From NCBI GenBank assembly GCA_963978895.1, contig OZ022242.1, positions 19,144,977-19,208,976 on the forward strand: 64,000 nucleotides of DNA, given 5' to 3'. The DNA is from Erpobdella octoculata. Lineage: Eukaryota; Annelida; Clitellata; Hirudinida; Erpobdellidae. Each line of letters opens with the position of its first letter. Position 1 is the first letter of the stretch. The position numbers and the translations under genes are program-made. The notes under the pieces were generated by a model. That model did not search any database, was not told the origin of the DNA, and was given only the letters and a program-made list of their open reading frames with translations. Positions 14,940 to 62,939 of this stretch are shown piece by piece.

Positions 14940-16850
<1,911 letters not shown>

Positions 16851-30620: not shown

Positions 30621-30753
30621 CAATTTTAGGAACAAGTGAATAAATCAAGTTTTTTCGGAACATTTAACGTTCGGTTCAAGATTTTATAAAGAACATTCGT
30701 TGTGAGCGATAAAGGTTAACCACGCTACATCGAGTAATACAATTGTTGAACTG

Positions 30754-33186
30754 ATGGCGGATGCAACGTTAAGAATCGCAAAGTTGAACGGCAGTAACTA
30801 CCAGACATGGAAGTTTAAAGTTGAATTGTTGCTCGTTAAAGAAGATCTCTGGGAAGTTATTTTTCAAGATCAAGATTCATCATCGGAATGGCGGAAAAAG
30901 GACAGCAAAGCCAGAGCAACAATAGGTCTACTCCTGGAGGACAACCAGTTGAACCTCATCAGAAAATTGACAACAGCAAAGGAAACGTGGGAAGCATTAA
31001 GAAATTACCACGAAAAGTCAACCTTATCAAATAAGGTAAGTTTGTTAAAGAGGCTTTGTGGGATCAGATTACATGAAGGTGGGGATATGGAGTCACATCT
31101 TGCTAAGATGGAAGACATAATTGACCAGTTATCGTCCTTGGGGGAAACTATTGGAGAACAGTTAAATGTTGCTTTCTTTCTCAGTAGTTTGCCAGACAGC
31201 TATAGCACACTGATAACAGCATTAGAAACAAGACCCGAAGCCGACTTAACTGTTGAATTGGTCAAGAACAAACTGATCGAAGAATACAAAAGAAGAAGTG
31301 AAAACTCAGCAACTTACGATGGTCAGGAACAGCAAGCTCTAAAGGTAAATCATCCAGGTACAAGGTCTACGGATAAGAATGTAAAAGCCAACAGTTACGA
31401 AAAGACTTCCACAGTATGTTTTTTCTGTAAGAAACCAAACCACATAAAGAAAGAATGCAGAAAATACTTAGAGTGGAAAAGAAAGAACTCAGACCATAAA
31501 GCTCAAACAATTCAACAATGTGTAGAAATAGCAAGCACTTATGACCAGTATGCTTGTTTCAAGGCTGGTGAAAGCAATTCAGGAACTACATGGTATGTTG
31601 ATTCAGGTGCAAGTTCTCATATGTGTAACAATAGAAATTTCTTTGTTAACCTTGATGAACAACAGAAGGGACAAGTTGTCCTAGCAAATGGTCAAAGGCT
31701 GACAACTTCAGGTATCGGAAGCGGCTACCTCAAATGTCAGGAAAAGGTCATAAAAATCATAGGTGTACTGTATGTACCGCAGTTGACAGGTAACTTGATT
31801 TCTGTTAGAAAATTAACTGATGGGCAGTTCAGGGTCATTTTTGAAAAGAATGTATGCAGGATTATGCGGAATAATGAACTGCTGGCGCAGGCTTCAATTC
31901 GGAACGGGCTGTATGAATTAGATTCATTGGAGCATGCATTGATGTCTAATGTTAATGATGGATGCATACATGTTTGGCACAACAGATTAGGGCATCGAGA
32001 CCCCAATGCCATAAAGTTATTGGAACAGCAACTAGATAACTTCCAGATCAAGCCATGCCAGATAAAGAAAGTCTGTGAATGCTGTATTCAAGCAAAGTTA
32101 ACGAAACAACCACTACCCAAGAAATCAGAATCCAGATCAAGTAAGCCACTAGAGTTGATTCACACAGACGTTTGTGGACCGATGCAGACAATCACACCAA
32201 GCGGAAACAGGTATTTTATGACAATGATCGATGACTTCAGCAAATACACTGTTTTGTACTTGTTAAAAAATAAGTTTGAAGTAACAGATAAAATTAAAGA
32301 ATATGTAAAGCTTGTCCAGACAAAATTCAAAAGCACACCTAAAGTGATAAGATCAGATCGTGGCGGTGAATATGTCAATGAAACATTAAAGAAATTCTTC
32401 AAGAGCGAAGGTATAACATCTCAATTTACTGTTCCGTATACACCACAGCAGAATGGAGTAGCAGAAAGGAAGAACCGCTATTTAGTTGAAATGACCAGAA
32501 GCATGTTAATCGACTCGAAGCTACCAAACAAATATTGGGGCGAAGCGATCAACACAGCAAACTATCTGCAGAACATTCTACCGACAGCAGGTGAGATGAA
32601 GACACCACATGAAAGGTGGGAAGGTGTGAAGCCCAGTGTGACCCACATAAAGCAATTCGGATGTCAAGCCTACTCAGTTGTTGCAGCCGAGAAAAGACAG
32701 AAGCTTGATAAAAAGTCAGAAAAACGAATTTTCGTTGGTTATGCAGAAGGCACAAAAGGTTATCGTTTGTTAGACACAGTGACTGAGAAAATCAGCATCA
32801 GCAGGGATGTGAAATTCATTGAAGGTGACCCACATTGGATTACAATATCAGCCGACAGTCAAGAAAGCAGTCAACAGGAACAGCCCATTGAGGTTGAGAT
32901 CGAGCTGAAGACAAATACAGATCAATCGGGAGACAGTGGTGAACAAACTGAAGATCAGATGGAATTGAGAAGGTCAACTAGAATAAAGAAACGACCAGAG
33001 AGACTAATTGAAACGGCTAGTGTTGCAAATGAAATGGTCGAACCAAAGTCATTCACAGAAGCAAACAACTGCAAAGAATCAGCCGTATGGAAACAGGCTA
33101 TGATGTGTGAAATGAGCAGCCTGAAGCAGAAACCAGTGGAAGCTGTTAAACTTAGACATTTATGTTGTGCTATTGGTTTAACTTAA
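30754..33186 (+). CDS. Copia Gag-protease-integrase polyprotein (RT/RNase H deleted)
   Basis: 810 aa without a stop. Order: Gag (UBN2-like) N-terminus; CCHC zinc knuckle at aa 222-235; aspartic protease DSGA at 283-286; GAG-pre-integrase HxxLGH at about 409 with a CxxC motif; integrase catalytic D472, D535, E571 (D-x62-D-x35-E); then an FVGY segment. After CEMSSLKQ, where the reverse transcriptase domain normally begins, the frame passes near 33129 straight to KPVEAVKLRH, a match to the usual C-terminal end of copia Pol. The whole RT and RNase H are therefore missing in frame. It could package and integrate RNA but not copy it, and must be mobilised in trans. Confidence 0.93.
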   Translation: MADATLRIAKLNGSNYQTWKFKVELLLVKEDLWEVIFQDQDSSSEWRKKDSKARATIGLLLEDNQLNLIRKLTTAKETWEALRNYHEKSTLSNKVSLLKRLCGIRLHEGGDMESHLAKMEDIIDQLSSLGETIGEQLNVAFFLSSLPDSYSTLITALETRPEADLTVELVKNKLIEEYKRRSENSATYDGQEQQALKVNHPGTRSTDKNVKANSYEKTSTVCFFCKKPNHIKKECRKYLEWKRKNSDHKAQTIQQCVEIASTYDQYACFKAGESNSGTTWYVDSGASSHMCNNRNFFVNLDEQQKGQVVLANGQRLTTSGIGSGYLKCQEKVIKIIGVLYVPQLTGNLISVRKLTDGQFRVIFEKNVCRIMRNNELLAQASIRNGLYELDSLEHALMSNVNDGCIHVWHNRLGHRDPNAIKLLEQQLDNFQIKPCQIKKVCECCIQAKLTKQPLPKKSESRSSKPLELIHTDVCGPMQTITPSGNRYFMTMIDDFSKYTVLYLLKNKFEVTDKIKEYVKLVQTKFKSTPKVIRSDRGGEYVNETLKKFFKSEGITSQFTVPYTPQQNGVAERKNRYLVEMTRSMLIDSKLPNKYWGEAINTANYLQNILPTAGEMKTPHERWEGVKPSVTHIKQFGCQAYSVVAAEKRQKLDKKSEKRIFVGYAEGTKGYRLLDTVTEKISISRDVKFIEGDPHWITISADSQESSQQEQPIEVEIELKTNTDQSGDSGEQTEDQMELRRSTRIKKRPERLIETASVANEMVEPKSFTEANNCKESAVWKQAMMCEMSSLKQKPVEAVKLRHLCCAIGLT

Positions 33187-40662: not shown

Positions 40663-43600
40663 ATTTCCAAAAAGTACTTCAAGAATCTCTACAGCTCAGT
40701 ATTAAGTAGGATTAACATAATAGAAAAATATCTTAAGAAAATTGAGGGTCAGTTTTTTTTAAGATTTTGTTTTGTTTGAAAATGACATTGTTATTTACTT
40801 TAGGTAGGGCCATAGCTAACATGTCAGTCCTGGGGTATAACTGTCCCATTTGACAGACAAAGTTCTAAGTCATTTTTTAAAAATAAATTATTACTTTTTA
40901 TATATATTGTATATTTTGAAAAAAAAACCTTAAGTTGGGTATTACTGCCATCCTAATGTGTTTGTTGAATTTTAAGCAAATTTGTTACAAACTAAGATGA
41001 ATAAGTCTATAAAACAGAAAAACAGTTTTCCAGATACTCGATGTGGAAATATGTGAGGATGGAAAATATCAGAAACTTTCAATAAATCGATATGGAAAGA
41101 AAACAGTTTTATTATAAATTTTTTAAATAAACTAAAAAATTACAAAAGTAATCGTTTGATATCGAAGGAACTTCAGCGCATTTTCGGCTAACGCATTAAC
41201 ATGCTTAGCCCTCCTTTATTTTATAAATAATTAAAATTTAAAAATATTTTAGTCATTTTTACAGTTAACATTTTACAATTAAAAAAGACTGATAAAACAT
41301 ATTTTTAGTTTATAATAATTGTGGGAGACTCAAAAAAGATTGAAAATAAATTATTGGTATTTAGTATTTAGACTGGTGGAAATTAAAAACTTTTATTGAA
41401 AATTTAAGCATAAGGACCTTTGACAAAACATCACTTGTTTAAAGAATTAGAAGATCAAACTCGCTTTCAAAGCTAAAAACTTTAACGAAATTGTAGAGAT
41501 GTTAATTATACCGATAATTATAAAAAAAAAAAAAAAAAAAATTATATTAATATACTTAATTGGTGTACAAAACTTTATTTTTTAAAGATATCATTTCGTT
41601 TATGATAATTATGAGACAAATAAAATTTAATAGGGCGGACAATATAGCCGAAAAAATCCCAAATGGACGCCGAGAACCCAGAAAATGTTATCGGTGCATT
41701 ATTTAAATGTAGATCAACTTGTTTGGATATTATTTAACTTATGAAGGCGTCTTCCATACTGTAGCCGAAATCTTGATGGATAAACCAGTTGCATTTGCAG
41801 ACATACATGGTATGATGGGAATGTTTCACTGGGTTAAAGTACTGCTCAAGTGTACTGGACGATATTTGTTGGGGTCTGGTATTGAAAATGGTTTGATTGA
41901 GACAGAGGTGTTTGGCAAGTTGACGCTAAATTCTGTTTTAGAAGGTACTCATTATGTTAGATCTTTCCAAGGCATAACAATTGTATCAGATGTCATAAGT
42001 TCCTTGATGTGGGAGGCATTTCAGCTGTGGGTCACTGAGCACGAAGTTGAAAAAAAAAACTAATGATGTGATGTCGTGTGCAGTTGAACTTAGAACAGCT
42101 CTGTGTGTTAAAAACAAAGACAAATCAACGGCGAAATTTGTAGAATTGCTTGAGAAATCAGACCATATTCAACAAATGTTCCTGTTTTTTGTGAAAGAAT
42201 GTGAATCAAAGTCAGAAGTTTGCCAGTATTGGGGTGTCTTTCAGCCGATGGCCTTGATTGTCAAACATCTCATTTCTTCTGATCGTGAAGGAAATTTTGC
42301 ACTTCACGTTGCATCTGTAGACAAGTCACTTCCAATCTTCAGAGAAAGTGATTGTTTGAACTACCTCCGATATGGTACTTTCTACCGTGAAAGTATAAAC
42401 AAACTAGAACATACTAATCCAGATGTCTTTCGCCGATTTGTGTGTGGCCAATTTGTTGTTAAAGACCGTGTTGGTTCTTTCAACGCTGTTGCACCAGACA
42501 TGAAACTAGAGCAGTCTATACAGAAAGCATCCAAAAGCAAGGGTGGAATTGTTGGCAATACACGAAACACGGCTGTTGTTGTTGAATGGCAGCTTATTTT
42601 TCATGAAATTTTGCTGATTTCCAACAACTTGAGAGAGATGACAAAAGACAATTCAATGAACCATAGTGAATCTGTACAGGTACACCATGATTTGGTAAGT
42701 CGGAAAGCAAATTATCTTAACAAAAATGTGGCACAACTGCTTGACTTCGTATGCAGCAGCGGAAATCCGTTCATTATTCAATCGCCTGGAATCAAGTTGC
42801 ATAATTTCATCACTAAGGAGATAGCTCATGATGAAGTGTCTCTGCGTCTTTGCCAGGCACTTAGGAACGGAGAAAGCTGCTTCAAAGAGTTTTACAAAGA
42901 AGGATAAAACAAAGAAACTGTTGGCCACAATTTTCAAAAGAAACCTGCTTGTAATGGACTATAAGCCACCGACAACTACCACAGATTCTGTTACTCCTTA
43001 TTCACAGAAGGTATTAGCTGCAGCTCAGCGCAACATCGATATCTTGATACAACGTGGTATGCCAATGGCAGAAATCTACTCTTATGATGTTTTGCCAGAT
43101 TCAATCATTTTTGGCAGTAATTTTGCATCAAAACCAGAGAAGAGTAAACTCGTGACTGAAATTGAAAAACTATTAGTGCCTGAAGAAATGGTTTTTCAAC
43201 ATTGGGATGCAGTTGTTATAGTTGATTTCATGTCGAAAATTAGCTTGTTTCCAAATTTGTGGTCGTTTGGCACATTTGGAAATGCTATTATATGGGTGCT
43301 GTCTGCAGGCCAGTCTATGTGTTGCAGAACAAGTTTCCATTTTATCTTCGACAGCTATATCGAATCGTCAATTGAAAAGCGGTGAAAGAAGTTGGCGTTC
43401 AGCTGGCACATCAGCAGTTTATATGACCGTCATAGGTCCTGATGCACCAATACTAAAACAGATGGACAAGTTTTGGACATCTCCAAGCAATAAGACTAAT
43501 TTACAGCTTTTAACTTGCCTGCTTGCTAGAGAACAGCAATCAATTCATCCCACCATACTCAGTGGGTGCTTTATTGATAATGACATTGTGCCAGCTGAGT

Positions 43601-46600
43601 TCATAAAATCACAGAGACAGTCGGATGACTCGTTTCAGCCAGTGCCTATTAAATCCCTTACAAGCCGTGTAGAAAAAGCGGATGATAGAATATTGCTTCA
43701 TTGTGCCTGGGAGGTGACTCGAGGCAGCAAGAGGCTTATGATTATATCATATGACACAGGTACACTAGTACGGCTATTGCGATTTGTCAACGACTGGAGA
43801 CACCTTGGACTGCTTGAATTGTGGATAGAATTTGGATCTGGGGAACATAAGCGACATCTCCCTGTCCATATTCTTGCTGATAGACTTGGCATAGATTTGC
43901 GTAGGGTTCTTGTAAAAGTGCATGTGCTGACTGGAGATGATGCTCTCAGCAAAATTGGAACTAAACATGCTGCATTTACGTGTGAGCCTCAAAGATACCT
44001 GAACAATTTTGCTGAGTCTACTGGATTGAGTGATGAATCATTTAAGTCAGCTGAAAAATACCTCGTTCGTGTGTGGATTGGAGCAGGGTGCAAGACTTCT
44101 TGTCAAACATATGACCAGGCACGATTTGAAAGTCATATTAATAGTGGTATGCCAAAGACACTGGCACAGTTGCCACCAATCTCAAGTGTCATTATGAATC
44201 ATATACAGCGAGCTTTTTACATCATACTGAATGTCCTCACTATCTTGATTGATGATGCTCCAATTCTCAGTGCAATAGATTATGGCTGGTTTTTAGATGG
44301 TACCATATTTCCTGTTGAAGGTCTTAAACCAATTCCAGAAAATATGCTGATTTTGTGCAGATGTGGTGGTAAATGTGACACCAACCGGTGTTTGTATGCA
44401 AAAGGAGAACTTCTATGTGTTATATATTGTCACATATTACATTCAGTCTCAGATTGTCACAACAAATAATTTATAGGCATTATATCTGCAAATGAAGTGC
44501 TTTTGGCGAAGTCATACCAGTTTATTATTAATATTATTAATGTCATAACATTATTAAATATGTTTTATTATTACCTTCACTGGTGACTTATAACAAACGG
44601 TATGCGGACTTTTCATCAAGGGACTGTTCATCAAGGACTTTTCATCAAGGGACTATTCATCAAGAGACTATTCGTCAAAGGACTATTCATCAAGAGGACG
44701 GTTCATCAAGAGGACGGTTCATCAAGAGGACGGTTCATCATAAGGACTGTTCATCTAAGACTATTCATCAAGAGGACTATTCATCAAATTTGGAAGCCAC
44801 TCCTCCCAAGATATTTTCAGCGTAAAGTAATTTGATGTATTTTTAAAAGACAGTTCTTCATTTTTGATAATATAAATTTTAAACATATCAAATAATTTTT
44901 AAAAAATAGTGATGGTAACCAGGGTTGTTAAGAGCGGTACAATTGGTTGACAAAATCGTTGATGACAGCACCGCTACATTTTTTTAGCTGTTCTCAGCGC
45001 TATTCGCTACCGCAACTTTTATTAAAAAACAAAAGAGGTTTTTTATATCAATTAAATGAGTTCCAATGTATTTAGTTTTTATTTGAAGTATGCATGAAAT
45101 CTGAATCTGGTTGATTGATCGACAAGCGTAGGTGTCTCTTTGAAATGTGGAACCTTTCATGACCTTGCTAAAGCGAGTGTGTGCGTCTCGTTGAAGTGTG
45201 GCAGAAGTGGTATACCGGATGTTAGTGATGTTTTGAGATGTATAGTATCCGGCTGTTTGAGTGTGTATATACTTACAGTTTGTACGAACAGTTGAAGGCA
45301 GTTTTTTTAAACTTGTTATTCAATTGTTTTTTGCTCGTTTGATCTTAAGATCTTGACGTTATTTCATGTCCAGTTGTTTTATTTACTGTATGTGACGAAT
45401 AAAATTGTTGTATATTACAACCATGTCTTCTACAAACTTGTTGATTGCTCGAGGCATAAGTGTCTTTGAAGCGTGGTCCCTTGGTGTTAAACGACCGATG
45501 CCAGATTTGACATAGCGGGCATGTGTGATGCTTTGACGTGTTTGTGGCCTTTGGTAAATGTGTACATATATGGTTTACGAAAACAGTCGAATTTAGTTTT
45601 TCTGGTGCTGTGACCGGGAGCGAAAGCGGGAGACAAGCGGAAGAGAGAGCGACCGGGAGCGTGAGAGCAAGCGGGGAAGGAAACGGGAGCGAGAGAAAAA
45701 CGACCGAAAAACCTCTAAAAACCCCGGGCAACACAAGGTACCTCACTAGTTCTATTATAAAGAATAAAGTATTTGGATGCAAGCAGAGTAGCACTGTAAA
45801 CTTGATATAGATTGCCCTACATTTTGGTAACATATTTTGGGTTGAAAATAACATCTTAAACAATTTTATTAAAATTTTTTGATAAATAGTCCGCTCGATG
45901 AATAGATGAACAGTCCTTATGATGAACCGTCTTTTTGATGAATAGTCCTCTGATGATTATTCTTTTGATGAATAGTCCCTTGATGAATAGTCCTTGATGA
46001 ACAGTCCTTTGATGAATCATCCTTTGATGAACAGTCCTAGAATCATAACAAACAATTTATCTTGTCATTGTTGGTGCGCTGGTGGCAGAGCGGTTGAGCA
46101 GAGGCGCTGGTGGCAGAGCGGTTGAGCGCTCGCCTGTCGATTGTTAGGTCGGCAGTTCAAGCCTCACCGGCGTCACCAGCGTAACTCCCTTAAGCAAGGA
46201 GTTCACTCGCATTGCTAAAGGGGTAGGCGCCTATAAATGGCTGCCTCTGCAAAGAACCCTTCAGTGGCCTTGAAGTCCTTTAGGATTTACGCCACTCTAA
46301 ATATTGTCAAACATTATTATTATTATTATTATTCTCATTGTTAAAAAATAAATCATACTTTATTAACAACATTTTCTCTGTTTTCGGCAGCCATTTTTGA
46401 TTTTGTCGGCCATATTAAATTTTATTTGTCTCGTAATTATCATAAACGAAATGATATCTCTAAAAAAATAAAGTTTTGTACACCAATTAAGTATATTAAT
46501 GTTGCCTGATTTAAAAATTTTCTTTATAATTATTGGTTGCCATTTTGAAAATTCAAGATGGCCGACTTATGCCACATTTTTGGTAATTCCACATAGTGCC

Positions 46601-52600: not shown

Positions 52601-55600
52601 ACAAAAATGTTATGCCGTATGTCTTTGGAGTCCTAATCATGTATGAAAAGTACTCACCAGAGACACAGCTCAATCTTACGTTGCTTAGGTTTGTTGATTG
52701 GTATTACAGGTCAAAATTGATGATTTGTTGATATTGGTCACAGTGTTTATTCAATGAAACACTGTTTAACAAAATGTCAACTTATTTATGAGGCTATAAA
52801 ATTTATTTAAGGAATGATAAATAAAAGATAATGCTTTGTAATTAAAACAAAAAAATAACATGAGCATTTTCAGAGGCAAATGGTAGATACCCAAACTCGA
52901 TGTACTCTTCTTTAAATTTTTGCTTGATTCATTTAGCAATGCGAGTGAACTCCTTGCTTAAGGGAGTTACGCTGGTAACGCCGGTGAGGCTCGAACTGCC
53001 GACCTGACAATCGACAGGCGAACGCTCTACCGCTCTGCCACCAGCGCCTCTATTGCAGACTTTACATTCTTTTAAACTTTCAGAACGATTGGACAAAAGT
53101 TCAGTGAATTATAGCATAAAATCGATTAAAACTTTTAAAATTTTAAAAAAGTTACAAATTTTCTGTAGAGAAATGAAGCATCAATTTTTAGTTTATTGAA
53201 AGAAAGCGATATTTAATTTTTTAATTTAAAAATTCATAATAACAAATTGTTTTTTTCCATATTGAATGAAAAGTGTCTTATATTTTAAATCCTCATATAC
53301 TTCCCATATCAAGTATTTAGAAGACTGTGGTCAATGATTTTTTATTTTATAGGCTTATTATCATTAAAAAATAATTTGTAAACAATTAGTAGCCACCGAA
53401 TTACAAAATTATAAATGAATTTTTCAAAACAAAGTTCTACGGTTCACTTGTTTGTCAACTTATTGCAGCTAAAAACACACAAAATTACAAAACTCTAACA
53501 ACTGAAAATCTACAAAAACAGTTGGTATCGCCTGCTAATTTGAAAATCTGATAATAAACACTGATACGTCACAAACTCTAACAATTCATATTGCTTCATC
53601 AAAAATTCAGAAATTATTTCATAGTTTAAAAACGTCACCAATTTCAAATACTTCTCAAAAATCTCGTGGCACACCTAAAATCTTTCATAGCACACAAGCT
53701 GAGAATCACTGGTCTAGATGAGTTGTGTCTGCTTCTCAACAGTCGCAGATGTTGGTGGAGTGCGTGATATCAAGTTTTATTATTTCAAACAAATTTTATG
53801 CAATGAAATAATAATGCTTTTAGAAGTGTCAACTTGTTAATTAATGACACCAATGAAAAGTTTTGGACCACCATGTCTGCCCGGTTACAGACTTGTATGT
53901 GTGTGAAGAAATTCAAAAATCAAAGTTCTGAAATTTGAAGTTGAAACTGGGACACCCCAAGTTACCATAGAACTCTGTAATTGTAATAGATGTGTGTAAC
54001 CATGAAACTATGTGACAGATGACTGTTATGTTGAGTTATATTTAAATAAGGAATATTTATAATAATTTAAATTTAAAAAAATTTTTAGCTCCTCTTGAAT
54101 GACAGTGTAAAAAACAGTGGTGCTTTGAAGCTGTTGATCTCATTCATTCCTCCAACTTCAGTAGTTTTCTTCAACTTTGTTATGCCGTATGTCTTTGGAG
54201 TCCTAATCATGTATGAAAAGTACTCACCAGAGACACAACTCAATCTTACGTTGCTTAGGTTTGTTGATTGGTATTACAGGTCAAAATTGATGATTTGTTG
54301 ATATTGGTCACAGTGTTTATTCAATGAAACACTGTTTAACAAAATGTCAACTTATTTATCAGGCTATAAAATTTATTTAAGGAATGATAAATAAAAGATA
54401 ATGCTTTGTAATTAAAACTAACAAATTGTGCAAATAAGTTAATTATCGACTGCAGGTCAGTTCTCATCAACTTGACATCAATATTGACCCTCGTAATAAC
54501 AATCGGTACTCAACTCATTTGTGGTAAAAAGCAGCCATGTATTACGACCGTTCCTGTTAGGAAATATTTGTTTATTATGATTAATTTTTATTTATTGTTT
54601 CAGTTGTTTTTTTATACAAAGTATTATGTTTTGTTTTAAATTTTTTTATTTGAATAATGATTAATAATAATTACAAGGATTATGGTAATTTAGTTTAGTT
54701 TTTAAATTTATATTTTAGTGTTGGGAGACTTATGTCGGGCAACAGCTGTACAAGTTGAGCCTCATTGATTTTGTTGTTGATATTGTGTCCACATTTCTTG
54801 AATTTGTTAGGAGGTGAGTAGACAGATGGATGAGAGTTAAATATGAGTAATTAAATATCGTTATTGAAAAGAACATTGAATAATATTTTCTAATTATAAA
54901 TATCTGTAACAATAATAATTTTCAAAATTTTTCTTATGTAAAAAATTACAAATTATCCTTCCTCTCTTTACTTAACTAATATAATAAAAAGTCCTTGTAA
55001 GTCTGTTTTTAGATCTTCTTCTCCTAATCACTCTTGTATTTTTTCTCTTAAGCATTCCTCTGCTAAACACTCTTTTTCCTACTCGGGTTTTTTTCTCTGG
55101 AAATCTTTTCTTTCTTCTTTTACTAACTCTATGCTACTCACTGTATTTTTTCATCGGTCGAAAACATTCTTTTTCAATCAGTTCGTGACCGAGCGAACTT
55201 GCACGCTCTGTAAATAGTGCTTAACAAACACCAGTGATTGATTAATCGATTTAAACAGATTATAGCAGAATTTGGAAGTTATGCATGATTGAATTTGTTT
55301 AATTTTTATATTGAAGAAAACTGGTAGACAGATTTCAAGAAAAAAAGTTTATAAAGTGGCTGGGATATCAGTCATTTGATGTACCAAAGAATATCATTGA
55401 TGTTGTGTACAAACAATCTATTTGCTGGTTGGATTTTTTTTTCAACTTTTATAGGCAGCCATTTTATTATTAGTTTGATGAACTTTAGTGTTTAAAACAT
55501 TGTAGTTACCTAAAATTATTTAAAAAAAAACATCTTTACCACTTTTTGTTCTAACACTTGACAAGAGGATAACTTTAGAATTACTAATAAAAGAACCAAA

Positions 55601-58600: not shown

Positions 58601-61559
58601 TCTTCATTGAATGCATTTGCTGTTGGAAGGCTGGTTAAACGTTTTTTTTTATTAAATATATTGATAGATTTAAAAATAAATAAAGGTCATTGTAATTATT
58701 ATTCTAAATATTTAGGGGCGCCATTGGGGAGGCAAGATTTTTAAAAAATTGAAGAAAAAAGGGAAGAATATTTGGAAAAAGTACCTGCAACTATACCCCT
58801 AATTATCAGCTATTTTTTATGGAAATTTAAGTTTAGTAGGTATTTAAAATGTTTTGGCATTTGAAAATTTTGCCCCCCATGGTTTTGCTGAAATGATGCT
58901 CCTATTAATATTATTATATTATAATTTTCCATTATGTAGCACTATAAAAATGTGACAACTCCAAACAAACCTCGTATCCAACAGTCATTGAGTTATGAAA
59001 ATTTTAGAATGATAAAATAAAATGTTATTGATAACTAGAAATGATCTTTTTGATAGGATTCTACCATCTCAATCCTGTGGGCCTTTTCGCATATTTACCA
59101 AGGACAATCATTATATATACACAGCAATGACAGACAACATTGCCACCTTCTCCTCTTCTATACAAACCTTTATTTGGTTTCTTGAGACGTGGATGTTTTT
59201 CATCATTTTCACCATTCTTCTCAGGTGTGTTAACTAGTGAATTGTTAAATGAGTGTTAAGTGAAAAATCAATTAGATTTTAACTTAGGTTGGTGGGAGAT
59301 TGGATTGATGAGATAGTTAGTTAGTTAAAGGATAAATTAATGAAAAGTAAATGAATAAATAAACCGTTTTTATTATTATGATATTTCTTAATATTCATAG
59401 AGAACAGTGCTTTTTAAGTAACTTTGATGTTCAGCATTTCACAATTTTTTTTCATGTTTGAAGGTATTAGTCAAACTTCATTACCAATCTGTAGCAAGAG
59501 GGCATTGAAAATGAAAACTCTGAAAACCAATTTTTAACATGAAAAATCACTGTTTTGCCTCTATTTTAGTCAACTTTGCATAAGTTTTTGTACACGTGTT
59601 GCTGCAATGGCAAAAGAATTCTTGAAATTTATTTGTTCAGTTAAGATTTACTCATCTACGTGATGAAAATATGTTTTATAGTATTTTATTTATGAACTAG
59701 CGGGGTACCCGGCGTTGTCCGGGGTTTTAAGAGGTTTTTCTAATGCTTGTTTTCCCGTTCCTGGTCGCTTTCCCGCTCCCGGTTGCCTTCATGCCTATAA
59801 ATTGTTCCTGCTCGCTCTCCCGCTCCGCTAAGCTCATTTGTGACCGATTTTAATTTTTTTTCACAAAAACTCCCCCCATTGACTCTCAAGATTGTGTGAA
59901 AATTTCATTATGATCAGATGAATGGTGTAGCAATGTATGAGTTACATACAGAAAACCTCATTTATATATATATATATATATTTTTCAAATAATTAGGAAC
60001 AAGATGTTCTTTCAAACACGCTTTATTAAAGACTATGGCCCATTTCTTATTACAAACTTTTTCTATCAAACGTGAAACTTTTCGAAAATCGGAAATACCA
60101 AGACACTTTTGAACAAACTGGTATATATTTTTATTAATGTTATGGTCATGAGCTGACCTGCAGGTTTCGGCTTTATTAGCCATCATCAGAACTCATAAAA
60201 CTAATTTACAGCTACAACGAAAATATATAAAGTGGTGTGGCGAGACATATCAGATATGTTTACACATCAATCGAGGTCAAAGTACAAAGAAGAGTAAAAG
60301 CAAATTATGAAAACCGCTAAGAAACAACCAAAAAATTTTTGCCTCGGAGTAAATAAATAAACAAAAAATAAGAAAAAATAAAAAATTACATGTGTTAAAA
60401 TATACAACCAAATTAAGTAGTAAAATATAACTATTAAAAGAAAATTACTAATAAAAGCAAAGAGGTAAAATAATAAAATAAGAATTTAAAGCTACAATTC
60501 AAAGATAATAGGATATCGATAAAATTGAGAGTTTAATTAAAAGTTGAAAATGATCAACGTCTACGTATAGTAATATTACAGTTATCGATCAAATGCGGAC
60601 ACATCGCACCAGTCCCATCACCATCACACAGGTCAGCAGTCTCGAGGCCTCGAGGAGGTTGGCTCATGGCTGACAAACCAGTGGAGCACTGCTCGACCGC
60701 GTCCAACGCTTCAATATGGTTGGTAGATGGAGGAAAGGAAACAGGACCACAAACTGGGCCGTTGTCGTATTGGTCGCAAGGATGATCATAACTGTGATAA
60801 GATACATTTGTAGTCTTGGTTGGCGAACTCCTAGTACGGAGTTCAGATAAATCAGAAAAGGAGATGCGAGGTGTAACAAAAGGAGAATGCGGGAGGACAG
60901 TGAATAGCGGAGTCCTTGGCATGTCGGCAGGGCACAATTCGGTTGCATTTGGAACATCGATACAGTTGGTAGGGTCTATTTCGTTGGCAGCGTTGTAGCT
61001 GTAAATTAGTTTTATGAGTTCTGATGATGGCTAATAAAGCCGAAACCTGCAGGTCAGCTCATGACCATAACATTAATAAAAATATATACCAGTTTGTTCA
61101 AAAGTGTCTTGGTATTTCCGATTTTCGAAAAGTTTCACGTTTGATAGAAAAAGTTTGTAATAAGAAATGGGCCATAGTCTTTAATAAAGCGTGTTTGAAA
61201 GAACATATATATATATATATATATATATAAATACTTTTTAATCTAGTTAATATTTTATTTCAGTCTCTTTATGTTGTATTACCTCTCACTTGTTGCTGGC
61301 AACAAGAAACTGGCAAAGAACTTGGAAGATCAATTGATTTCTGTAAATCTCTTAATTTATTGAATTTATTTCTTTAATATGTGTTGATTTTGTTGTTGTA
61401 TTGTCTGTTTTGGTGTGCCTAAAAATATGTTTATTAATTTTTTAATGTCTAACAACTTGTACCCAATAAAATTATTTACAGATGAAATCTGACAATCAAC
61501 AGTACAGGAAAGAAATCCTGGCTCTGAAACAGAGGCTTAATAGACAGAAGAACATGTGA
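40663..61559 (+). CDS. TMC (transmembrane channel-like) protein, N-terminus missing
   Basis: Fifteen exons: 40663-40747, 47555-47722, 47850-47989, 48499-48635, 49239-49413, 51123-51284, 54089-54258, 54456-54555, 54719-54813, 55317-55427, 57189-57264, 58499-58629, 59057-59224, 61264-61342, 61482-61559. Joined 1875 nt, 624 aa, frame continuous. TMC proteins are ten-pass membrane proteins of the TMEM16/OSCA fold; TMC1/2 form the hair-cell mechanotransduction pore. Landmarks: KFGFTVLSYF at TM1, CGWDF, LIRIFINILV, the family signature CWETYVGQ (54719), FDVPKNIIDVVY, CGPFR, and LYYLSLVAGNKK before a Lys/Gln-rich tail. The paralog cannot be named. The intron after 58629 would use GC rather than GT (AG/GCTGGT); all others are GT-AG. 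Intron 1 (6.8 kb) contains a 5-kb transposon-like element. Confidence 0.92.
41000..41140 (-). repeat. Unclassified interspersed repeat, copy 3 (reversed, partial)
   Basis: Its reverse complement shares TTCTTTCCATAT, TTTCTGATATTTTC and ATAGACTTATTC with the copies at 5930, 24000 and 53070. In TMC intron 1. Confidence 0.5.
41663..44467 (+). pseudogene. Broken PIN-like nuclease-domain gene of a repetitive invertebrate family
   Basis: Four overlapping frames (to 41737, 41719-42063, 42047-42907, 42828-43385 and 43222-44469, the first short) together give about 900 codons. The frame changes lie at about 41720, in the A-run at 42048-42058, near 42900 and near 43330. I recognise the order from large multicopy proteins of many invertebrates: an RYGxFY...SKGG region; a VVDFMS and IFDSYIESSIEKR block (start of a PIN/FEN-like nuclease fold); a DDRILLHCAWE...ISYDTGTLVRLL block (acidic residues of that fold); VHVLTGDDALSK; LIDDAPILSAIDYGW; and a C-terminal Cys-rich CRCGGKCDTNRC. 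The biochemical role is unknown. The frameshifts make it a pseudogene. Confidence 0.65.
45110..45600. repeat. ~330-bp diverged direct duplication
   Basis: 45110-45310 and 45440-45600 share TTGATTG, AGTGTCTTTGAA/GTGTCTCTTTGAA, a GATG-TTTTGA word and a GTACGAACAGT/TACGAAAACAGT word in the same order. They lie between the fold-back arms. Confidence 0.5.
45600..45749 (+). mobile_element. Family B Helitron fragment, 3' end
   Basis: CGGGAGCGAAAGCGGGAG-type minisatellite, then CCCCGGGCAACACAAGG (decayed hairpin) and CTAG at 45749 followed by T. The 5' end is not identified. Confidence 0.6.
46068..46330 (+). mobile_element. tRNA-derived SINE, family 2, copy 1
   Basis: Box A TGGCAGAGCGGT and box B CAGTTCAAGCC in a tRNA-like head, then the core TTAAGCAAGGAGTTCACTCG, a body ending GCCACTCTAAATATTG, and a (TTA)n tail. 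The first ~28 bp of the head are duplicated in tandem. Confidence 0.85.
46540..47554. other. Rest of TMC intron 1
   Basis: AT-rich, no coding frame that fits the gene. About 46880-47110 contains words (GCATTTTATAAA, CCCATGG) partly shared with 58800-58900, a probable old repeat. Confidence 0.35.
48709..48780 (-). mobile_element. Helitron-like 3' end (fourth type)
   Basis: On the minus strand the hairpin GCAGAG-ACG-CTCTGC is followed by ACAGGTGCTGCTAG (end 48709), with A on the + strand before it, as expected for an AT target. The rest of the element is not delimited. In a TMC intron. Confidence 0.5.
49900..50720. repeat. ~200-bp repeat cluster with hairpin
   Basis: 50341-50456 and 50544-50660 are direct copies (ATATCTCAAAAACTAGCC, AACAAGCAAGGTGTCATTTT, AAAATGAAAACCTAAACC), with a more diverged copy near 50155-50290. 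50520-50570 and 50655-50700 form an inverted repeat around AGCATAAAGCGTATATCTCA. GCAGGCGCTC words recur at 49935, 49990 and 50462. Confidence 0.7.
51757..51990 (+). mobile_element. tRNA-derived SINE, family 2, copy 2
   Basis: Same head (TGGCAGAGCGGT, CAGTTCAAACC) and core as 46068, diverging after AAGAACCC. It ends in a perfect hairpin (51919-51953) and an A-rich tail. Confidence 0.85.
51919..51953. repeat. Perfect 16-bp stem hairpin in the SINE tail
   Basis: CGCCTTTGTGCAAGAC, a TTT loop, and its exact reverse complement. Confidence 0.9.
52609..52848 (+). repeat. Duplicated half-exon of TMC
   Basis: 240 bp almost identical to 54179-54418 (two differences seen). It copies the 3' half of the 54089-54258 exon, its GT donor and 160 bp of intron. 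It lacks the acceptor half, so it should not be spliced in normally. Confidence 0.95.
52935..53050 (-). mobile_element. SINE family 2, copy 3, 3'-truncated
   Basis: Reverse complement of the tRNA-like head and start of the core only. It lies between the two copies of the TMC half-exon duplication. Confidence 0.85.
53070..53460 (+). repeat. Unclassified interspersed repeat, copy 4
   Basis: Longest match to the 5930 copy: GCGATATTTAATTTTTTAAT, CATATTGAAT, ATAGGCTTATTATCATTAAA and GGTTCACTTGTT in the same order. Confidence 0.65.
55428..57188. other. Long TMC intron
   Basis: 1.76 kb without an identified repeat or coding frame. A more GC-balanced stretch at 55650-55860 may be a decayed insertion. 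Confidence 0.4.
57310..57568. repeat. 17-bp satellite, about 15 copies
   Basis: Perfect repeats of TTATTACATAAATAGTG in a TMC intron. Confidence 0.97.
59697..59960 (-). mobile_element. Family B Helitron fragment
   Basis: Minus strand 3' end CTAG at 59697 with A before it on the + strand, hairpin CCGGACAACGCCGGG-like, minisatellite (59745-59800), then the conserved inner part shared with 29427-29598 (GACTCTCAAGATTGTGTGAA). The 5' side runs into a TA array where the Penelope remnant starts. Confidence 0.7.
60148..60196 (-). ncRNA. Hammerhead ribozyme (type I), minus strand
   Basis: Exact inverted copy of the motif at 61014-61062. Self-cleavage expected between 60155 and 60154. Confidence 0.8.
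60554..60993 (-). pseudogene. C-terminal remnant of the Penelope-like ORF
   Basis: An open frame enters from the right pLTR side (AANEIDPTNC) and stops after about 145 codons (DNCNITIRRR). It is rich in Pro, Ser, Thr and Cys and has no domain I know. Its position before the sense-oriented left pLTR fits the protein tail of the element. It could also be an unrelated passenger. Confidence 0.4.
61014..61062 (+). ncRNA. Hammerhead ribozyme (type I)
   Basis: Stem I ATGAGTT (61014-61020) pairs with AGCTCAT (61056-61062), one G-U. Core CTGATGA at 61021-61027. Stem II GGC/GCC with a 7-nt loop (61029-61041). GAAA at 61042-61045. Stem III is CC/GG with UGCA loop closed by A-U (61045-61054). Cleavage is expected after C61055. 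All conserved core bases are present; the extra U at 61028 before stem II is the one deviation. Confidence 0.82.
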
Positions 61560-61764: not shown

Positions 61765-62939
61765 TCTATATATATAAAAGAACATGTCCTGACTGACTGA
61801 CTGACTGACTGACTGACTGACTGATGACTGACTGATAATCAACGCCGAGCTCAAACGCCTCATCCTAGGAACGTGAAATTTGGAACTTATATTACTTTTA
61901 TAGCGTAAACATCCGCTAGGAAAGGATTTTTTAAAATTTTGCTCCTGAGGGGAAAAAACTGGAAAACAAACTTTTTTCTAAAACAATGTATATCTCGGAA
62001 ACCAAAAATGATGAGATTTTGAAATTTGGTATATAGATTCTTTTTGAAAAATAAAAAGATACGTGTTTCACCATTTTTTGAAAATTCGGTTTCCCGGACC
62101 TCAAATGTGGGTTGGAAAATTGGGTTGTTTGGTTTTTAAAGTAGCTTCTACTCAAAAACTGTTAATGCTACAGGAGTAAAAATTAGTATTTAGTTTCTAC
62201 TCTAAAAATAATGAAATACGTGTTTTAGCATTTTTTGAAAATTTGGTTTCCAGGACTTCAAATGTGGGGTGGAAAATAGGGCTAAATGTCTTTTATAGTA
62301 ACTGCTACTCAAAAACAGTAAATACCACAGATGTAAAAATTATTATTTAGTTTCTTTTCTAAAAATAAAGATATACGTGTTTCACCATTTTTTACAATTT
62401 GGTTCCCAGGACCTCAAATGTGAAGTGGAAAAAAGGTTATTTGATTTTAAAATAACTGCTACTCAAAAACTGTAAGTGCTACAGATGTGAAAATTAGTAT
62501 TTTGAGGTTTTGTTCCGGTTAAAAGTAGATGAGTTCAGTTTATCACCGGACGGACGGGCCAAGCCGTTATTTTAGGGTCTTCACACGGCCCTGCCCAATC
62601 CTTAAATCAAGGTGGGACGGGCCGAGATTTTTAACTAAGTATATAGACATTTGAGTGATTTTAGGGTTTTCAGACGGACCGGGCTAAACCTGAAGTCAAG
62701 GTGGGACGGGCCGAAGTTTTTCATCAAGTATATAGAACTTCTAGGCCTGTAAAAACGGGCCGGGCCCATATTAGACGGGCCGTGCCGGGCCAGGAATTTC
62801 GGTTTATGAAGCGGGCTGGGCCAAGTTGCCGACGGGCCGAGCCGAGACCTAAAAAATTGATCCGTGTAGTACTCTACTATGTATGCTCGGTTCAAATTCT
62901 CTAATTTCATGCGAGCGAAGCCGCTACGGGCACTGCTAG
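61765..62939 (+). mobile_element. Non-autonomous Helitron, family A, copy 3
   Basis: TCTATATATATAAAAGAACA start at 61765 after A, CTGA microsatellite, about three and a half ~157-bp units, GC-rich 3' part, hairpin AGCG-AAGC-CGCT and TGCTAG end at 62939 before T. 1175 bp, shorter than copies 1 and 2 only by fewer tandem units. Confidence 0.87.

Follow-up and report, generated by a model that had tools for sequence, protein, structure and literature searches.

Among described systems, the closest counterparts of the insertion analysed here are Penelope-like elements (PLEs) and the hammerhead ribozymes that they carry. In PAc, the Poseidon PLE of Anolis carolinensis, a ribozyme lies at the start of the reading frame (the frame begins at stem II), the element has a tandem organisation and an AT-rich target and, in vitro, both target strands are cleaved and extended from two internal reverse-transcription start sites that bound an optional tail, according to the available text of PMC11167929. 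Pen2 and other Penelope elements of the rotifer Adineta vaga form 5'-truncated copies with inverted pseudo-long terminal repeats (pLTRs) of about 212-218 bp, one of which can carry an optional 31-bp tail; self-priming on an antisense template was proposed for them from palindromic junctions, their copy number is low, and the term hammerhead has a count of 0 in the available text of that report (PMC3846280). The type I hammerheads of PLEs and Terminons are minimal, with a self-complementary stem III and a predicted dimer fold (PMC7761336, available text), and metazoan retrozymes likewise combine a type I hammerhead with a mobile element, in their case as repeats of 150-450 bp (PMC7229834, available text). 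Here we describe a PLE insertion in an intron of a TMC-like gene of the annelid Erpobdella octoculata, contained in a 64,000-nt stretch of contig OZ022242.1 (assembly GCA_963978895.1, positions 19,144,977 to 19,208,976) that we call the window.

The insert (about 59982-61206) is, judged by alignment, a 5'-truncated PLE copy joined to an inverted stretch of the same element, and the copy is apparently young. We consider it probable, at about 0.72, that it was made by two reverse transcriptions, primed from the two sides of a cut TA tract and beginning at two different fixed points of the RNA. Its two arms (60004-60219 and 60991-61206) are 216 nt long, 100% reverse complementary and separated by a spacer of 771 nt. 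The left and middle portion (59982-60993) yields a single alignment with a tandem unit of locus L031, at 98.0% identity with 16 gap columns, and the middle part is 99.9% identical to L045. No Pfam family was found for the 158-aa frame in the middle of the insert or for the 61-aa frame in the arm; both were identified solely through intact copies elsewhere in the genome.

Such copies lie on contig C1 (L031), where three arms stand in tandem, spaced 3829 and 3830 nt, and the units hold two intact open frames of 1150 codons. These frames begin within the ribozyme, with the ATG overlapping its core, and end like the 158-aa frame of the window. The 1150-codon frame matches RVT_1 at 1.5e-8 (Pfam), and 512 homologs of it reach E<=1e-10 out of 7993 scored. 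With one homolog, P0109, which bears PF01541, it aligns over 625 aa at 44% identity, and the alignment runs through the GIY-YIG region (YIGQT...RR). Because of these three results the element is, on its coding sequence, assigned to the PLEs; most of the 120 homologs listed bear RVT_1, PF28514 and PF26215. Features of endonuclease-containing PLEs that are present include a single frame with PLE-type reverse transcriptase, tandem or inverted pLTRs with an optional tail, and an AT-rich target; for a C-terminal GIY-YIG endonuclease there is the alignment with P0109, with no PF01541 reported by Pfam for the frame itself at E<=1. The Penelope-like origin that an earlier, sequence-only reading of this stretch had proposed is borne out by the tandem units, which encode reverse transcriptase and carry the same arm. 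A metazoan retrozyme, which would be a short noncoding repeat, was ruled out, as the unit measures 3.83 kb and encodes reverse transcriptase.

The genome search covered 386 Mb in 94 contigs. All 40 places scored for the arm, out of 481 first-look candidates, were 100% identical over 216 nt; two of them are the arms of the window and the remaining 38 were fetched in 34 regions. Since all scored places are identical, the identity of the two arms is what a young copy would be expected to show, and it points to youth, not selection. Allowing up to 3 mismatches, the ribozyme core occurs at 370 places in the genome, against 0 for a reversed-pattern control.

In the 34 regions and the window, 45 ribozyme cores were found at the same tolerance, of which four run on into the frame, 35 lead to a long end and six to a short end. 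The 41 ends all fall at two positions some 24 nt from each other, and in every case at least 17 of the next 20 nt are A or T. The short end falls no more than 3 nt past the codon of Glu-59 of the PLE frame; the long end lies about 24 nt beyond it, at 24-28 nt after the Glu-59 codon, a range that is given because element and target share A/T letters. The insert of the window has one end of each kind: the left end carries the long tail that extends past the arm, and the putative right transcript ends no more than 3 nt from the Glu-59 codon, whose last letter is 61203. Each of the six short ends (window, L032, L043, L046, L057, L063) opposes a long end in an inverted pair, as does a seventh short end, at L039, which has no ribozyme.

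The same asymmetry appears in the genome-wide census. Allowing one mismatch, we counted 43 short ends (control 1) and 330 long ends (control 0), 244 of the latter (133 + 111) being exact. Pairs were tallied in the area from C1 to C7:11.70M, where exact long ends are fully listed, with 29 short ends (at most one mismatch) and 177 exact long ends. Within 8 kb, the outward-facing pairs comprised 16 long-short, two long-long and no short-short pairs, from 17 loci (C3:927xxxx was counted twice), and shuffling of the labels gave a mean of 4.4 long-short pairs and reached 16 in 0 of 20,000 trials. Four further pairs faced inward, and all of these were long-long (C3:11705223/11707090, C3:11856121/11861576, C2:30959367/30959792 and C6:13614046/13614443); from their arrangement they look like separate neighbouring insertions. 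Two outward long-short pairs on C5 (19494002/19494263 and 25958782/25959051) are just 261 and 269 nt apart; there, both cDNAs would end within the arm, giving very small inverted copies.

Where the two cDNAs of one insertion overlap, they are nearly or fully identical. No substitution separates them in the window (213 columns) or at L043 (782 columns, two gap runs aside), and one separates them at L032, L046, L057 and L063, hence 0-1 in all six loci. As a control, 25 pairs from different loci were sampled at each of three lengths; apart from pairs as similar as those within an insertion, most differed by 2-8 substitutions, mostly with 2-4 gap runs, and two by 17-18. Large values came from another 5-7 pairs, presumably because a copy in them is truncated short of the length compared.

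The shape of these pairs bears on the leading alternative, in which the inverted arm is produced when a nascent transcript or cDNA turns back and serves as its own template. Such self-priming was proposed for the rotifer elements from palindromes at inverted junctions (PMC3846280, available text), and the two long-long pairs of the census are of the kind that it would produce. Yet it should leave ends of equal length and a palindromic junction, whereas 16 of the 18 outward pairs have unequal ends, the two copies stop at different positions, and none of the eight junctions read (window, L032, L039, L043, L046, L057, L063, L065) holds a palindrome, the longest perfect inverted-repeat arms being 3-5 nt. 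The upstream extents of the two cDNAs are also unequal within each pair. Unequal extents and palindrome-free junctions fit two primings on the same kind of RNA, as read from these copies, and not fold-back copying, which we regard as unlikely.

A still less likely alternative is that two members of the family inserted independently, in opposite orientation, into one TA tract. A/T-rich DNA is a common target, and the four inward long-long pairs resemble such events. Independent insertions, however, would be mostly long-long, as 177 of 206 ends are long. In the pairs that were read, moreover, the two copies are nearly identical and are separated by a few additional bases at most.

Several observations weigh against two primings from different fixed starts. 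Two of the 18 outward pairs are long-long, and one long-long pair whose sequence was read, L065, is a true inverted copy. For 13 of the 29 short ends, no exact long end lies within 8 kb as a partner, in a census in which long partners with an altered tail would be missed (exact ends make up 244 of the 330 found at one mismatch). The end patterns require a TA tract and cover the two known end positions alone, with short ends at up to one mismatch and long ends exact, and the fetched regions were selected by a full 216-nt match, so that ends further upstream could not show up. Among the between-locus controls, 3-5 of 25 pairs also differ by 0-1 substitutions, and the arms of L043 are set apart by their two gap runs. 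PF01541 was not reported for the 1150-codon frame by Pfam at E<=1. Finally, the lizard PLE showed no start-site difference between strands in bulk in vitro (PMC11167929, available text), an assay that would not reveal how start sites are paired within one molecule.

In the mechanism that we propose for the window copy, an endonuclease would cut both strands of the target, and two protein subunits working on the same kind of RNA would prime one cDNA from each 3' end. One cDNA would begin at each start site; the two would halt at unrelated points and then be joined end to end. The ribozyme would serve the processing of tandem element RNA, acting as a dimer, and in the TMC intron it is predicted to be locked within the 216-bp duplex. 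Whether PLEs in general use such twin target-primed reverse transcription with a fixed offset, carried out by a protein dimer with one start site per subunit, we regard as evenly balanced. If they do, fixed-offset twin priming would yield inverted copies with one long and one short end and explain the long-known optional tail; it would also account for the near-invariant FNxxCLKExLxPxY motif, whose codons would be the start sites. LINE-1 twin priming also uses two primers on one insertion and leads to an inverted structure, with a second start that is variable and internal, whereas the two starts of the present family are fixed and about 24 nt apart.

PAc differs in position, as its main start lies 111-118 nt into the frame and the ends of our family lie about 177-180 and 201-204 nt into the frame; the available text of that report (PMC11167929) does not describe how the two start sites are paired in a single insertion. 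Our literature search found no statement that two start sites are shared one per end, with subscription papers outside the search and earlier print possible, and the combination of 'twin priming' with 'Penelope-like elements' returned 0 papers. The insertion itself belongs to a known PLE kind, and the rule of one long and one short end is apparently the new part. A high-copy, very young family with ends readable at hundreds of places makes the priming question testable from sequence.

Other PLE families in the same genome have ends at corresponding places. Scanning the fetched DNA for the FN..[C/S]..E codons (358,214 nt, overlapping loci and the window included) gave ten ends of other PLEs, four at the short and six at the long position. 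All ten adjoin a TA tract or A/T-rich DNA, with L047, where there is a short TA run only, the least clear. Two of the ten form an inverted pair of a second family at L010, with arms of 62 bp, a long left end and a short right end; together with the 16 of 18 long-short pairs, this pair points to two priming events per insertion. This second family, at L010 690-1459 (C4:32359009-32362224), has a hammerhead-like motif and directly adjoins a copy of the first family. Two residues, Glu-59 at the short start and Pro-63 between the starts, were invariant when 40 of the 120 listed homologs were aligned with the frame; this invariance may stem from the protein or from an RNA start signal.

The ribozyme itself was examined in both arms. 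Each arm reads 5' side of stem I, CTGATGA, stem II, GAA, ACCTGCAGGT, C and 3' side of stem I, with stems I, II and III of 9, 4 and 3 bp. The core pattern matches twice in the window against 0.04 expected, and a stricter descriptor that requires three stems returned the same two motifs only in the window and 0 in 60 dinucleotide shuffles. The sequence-only reading was thus correct in describing identical inverted arms with a full hammerhead core and three formable stems, arranged head to head in a TMC intron with the right copy in sense and the left in antisense, and its predicted cleavage site agrees with the core sequence. A covariance-model search was the check that it had suggested: the Rfam scan of the window gave no match at the curated (gathering) threshold, and a permissive scan matched both arms to Hammerhead_HH9 at 15.4 bits (threshold 52, E = 2), alongside four further sub-threshold matches to unrelated families. 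A search with RF00008 returned nothing in this genome nor in control genomes and is hence uninformative. With nothing above threshold, the Rfam hammerhead families were dropped as proof of the motif, and we do not require an above-cut-off match for calling a hammerhead one of the minimal PLE kind.

Better support comes from comparison, as ten ribozymes of this genome keep the fold with changed stems. In the 191,986 nt of the 34 fetched regions the descriptor scan returned 11 distinct hammerhead sequences, whereas 25 shuffled sets averaged 0.08. Two of the 11 belong to the family of the insertion; the other nine include two that are a single base apart. The set of ten that we compared includes the ribozyme of the window and adds L010, found through its reading frame. 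Two to four kinds of base pair occur at nine of ten stem positions; because the scan demanded pairing except for L010, it is this variety, and not the 100/100 paired cells, that counts as evidence. The ATG stands at the same position of the core in all ten, and the stem III stretch is self-complementary in eight. Judged by its conserved core and three stems, the ribozyme of the window is a minimal type I hammerhead of the PLE kind. Further hammerheads with different stem sequences, each with an ATG overlapping the core, were seen at L034, L040, L047, L054, L056 and L060 and likely belong to other PLE families.

The sense TMC pre-mRNA would, from the orientation of the arms, carry one sense and one antisense ribozyme; compared with the PLE and Terminon hammerheads (PMC7761336, available text), the intron thus holds one per strand, known here from its sequence. 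The intact core, the sense ribozyme and the 216-bp hairpin would suit a self-cleaving or double-stranded RNA element that regulates TMC and is under selection. We regard this as very improbable, as identical copies at 40 scored places explain the arm identity through youth, minimal motifs of this kind are believed to work as dimers (PMC7761336, available text), and the predicted fold of the whole intron pairs all 216 bases of the right arm, including 49/49 ribozyme bases, with the left arm. That the arms would pair over 216 bp and block the ribozyme fold had been anticipated correctly. The same reading also held that the intron could cleave itself; that it is special or likely to do so is not supported, given the 3-bp stem III of a minimal motif and the fold predicted for a single copy, whose minimum-energy structure is not a hammerhead (-11.9 vs -8.1 kcal/mol for the hammerhead); two copies of the 49-nt motif are predicted to form a dimeric hammerhead at -36.9 kcal/mol. 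Because the motif is thought to be dimeric and all its bases are predicted to pair with the other arm, self-cleavage of the TMC intron is not expected. The PAc ribozyme cleaved only when protein was added (PMC11167929, available text). The case shows that the presence of a perfect ribozyme does not by itself make an intron sequence a regulatory device.

The long exact inverted repeats beside TA might suggest a DNA transposon or MITE whose ribozyme match is due to chance. This reading is practically negligible and already refuted by the 1150-codon reverse transcriptase frame, the end of which the insert encodes. Intact tandem units exist, and the hammerhead motif recurs with changed stems. Such a transposon would encode a transposase and have both ends inverted in most copies; over the stretches fetched, an inverted partner was found in 6 of the 34 regions plus the window.

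The host gene lies on the + strand (Table 1). Two upstream coding stretches, near 54719 and 57172, were chosen by eye and joined, and together match PF07810 at 2.2e-13. For the last three exons the match is to transmembrane channel-like protein 1, at E = 0.0027, or 0.0066 when further stretches are included; a Pfam search of these three exons gave no TMC family.

Table 1. Features of the PLE insertion and its host intron, in coordinates of the window.
Feature	Position	Strand	Basis or remark
TMC exons bordering the intron	59058-59224 and 61264-61342	+	by eye
TMC intron with the insertion	59225..61263	+	2039 nt; GT/AG and reading frame by eye
Last TMC exon	61482-61559	+	by eye
TA tract, left insertion end (target)	59960..59981		read from sequence
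Putative first reverse transcript (left), with the long end at its 3' side	59982..60993	-	aligned to L031 unit
PLE reading-frame start (MANKAETC...CLKEHLVPNYLK), left copy	59982..60183	-	ATG overlaps ribozyme core
Hammerhead motif, left arm	60148..60196	-	pattern and descriptor scans
Element sequence between stop codon and arm	60220..60553	-	adjoins arm in other copies too
Last part of PLE reading frame, 5'-truncated copy	60554..60990	-	ends NCNITIRRR, as does the 1150-codon L031 frame
Putative junction of the two transcripts	60991..60993		transcripts overlap by 3 nt; no palindrome (perfect arms of up to 4 nt)
Putative second, inverted reverse transcript, short end at 3' side (right)	60991..61206	+	100% to L031 unit over 216 nt
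Hammerhead motif, right arm	61014..61062	+	pattern and descriptor scans; predicted cleavage after C61055
PLE reading-frame start, right copy	61027..61206	+	ends CLKEH
TA tract, right insertion end (target)	61207..61228		read from sequence

Other repeats and elements occur in the window. Downstream of the last TMC exon, about three tandem copies of a 157-bp unit with some 80% identity (62022-62502) are preceded by a GACT repeat (about 61790-61830, by eye) and followed by an 89-bp repeat (62566-62736). Three overlapping long frames of 299, 186 and 415 codons at 42008-44469, two of which gave no Pfam family above the cut-off, may represent a single gene or element interrupted by frame breaks. A reverse transcriptase fragment, by eye of the non-LTR type, lies on the - strand at 15615-16064 (RVT_1, 1.4e-9), and a long open Copia-type gag-integrase frame of 826 codons spans 30706-33186 (Retrotran_gag_2, 9.8e-40; rve, 7.2e-14).

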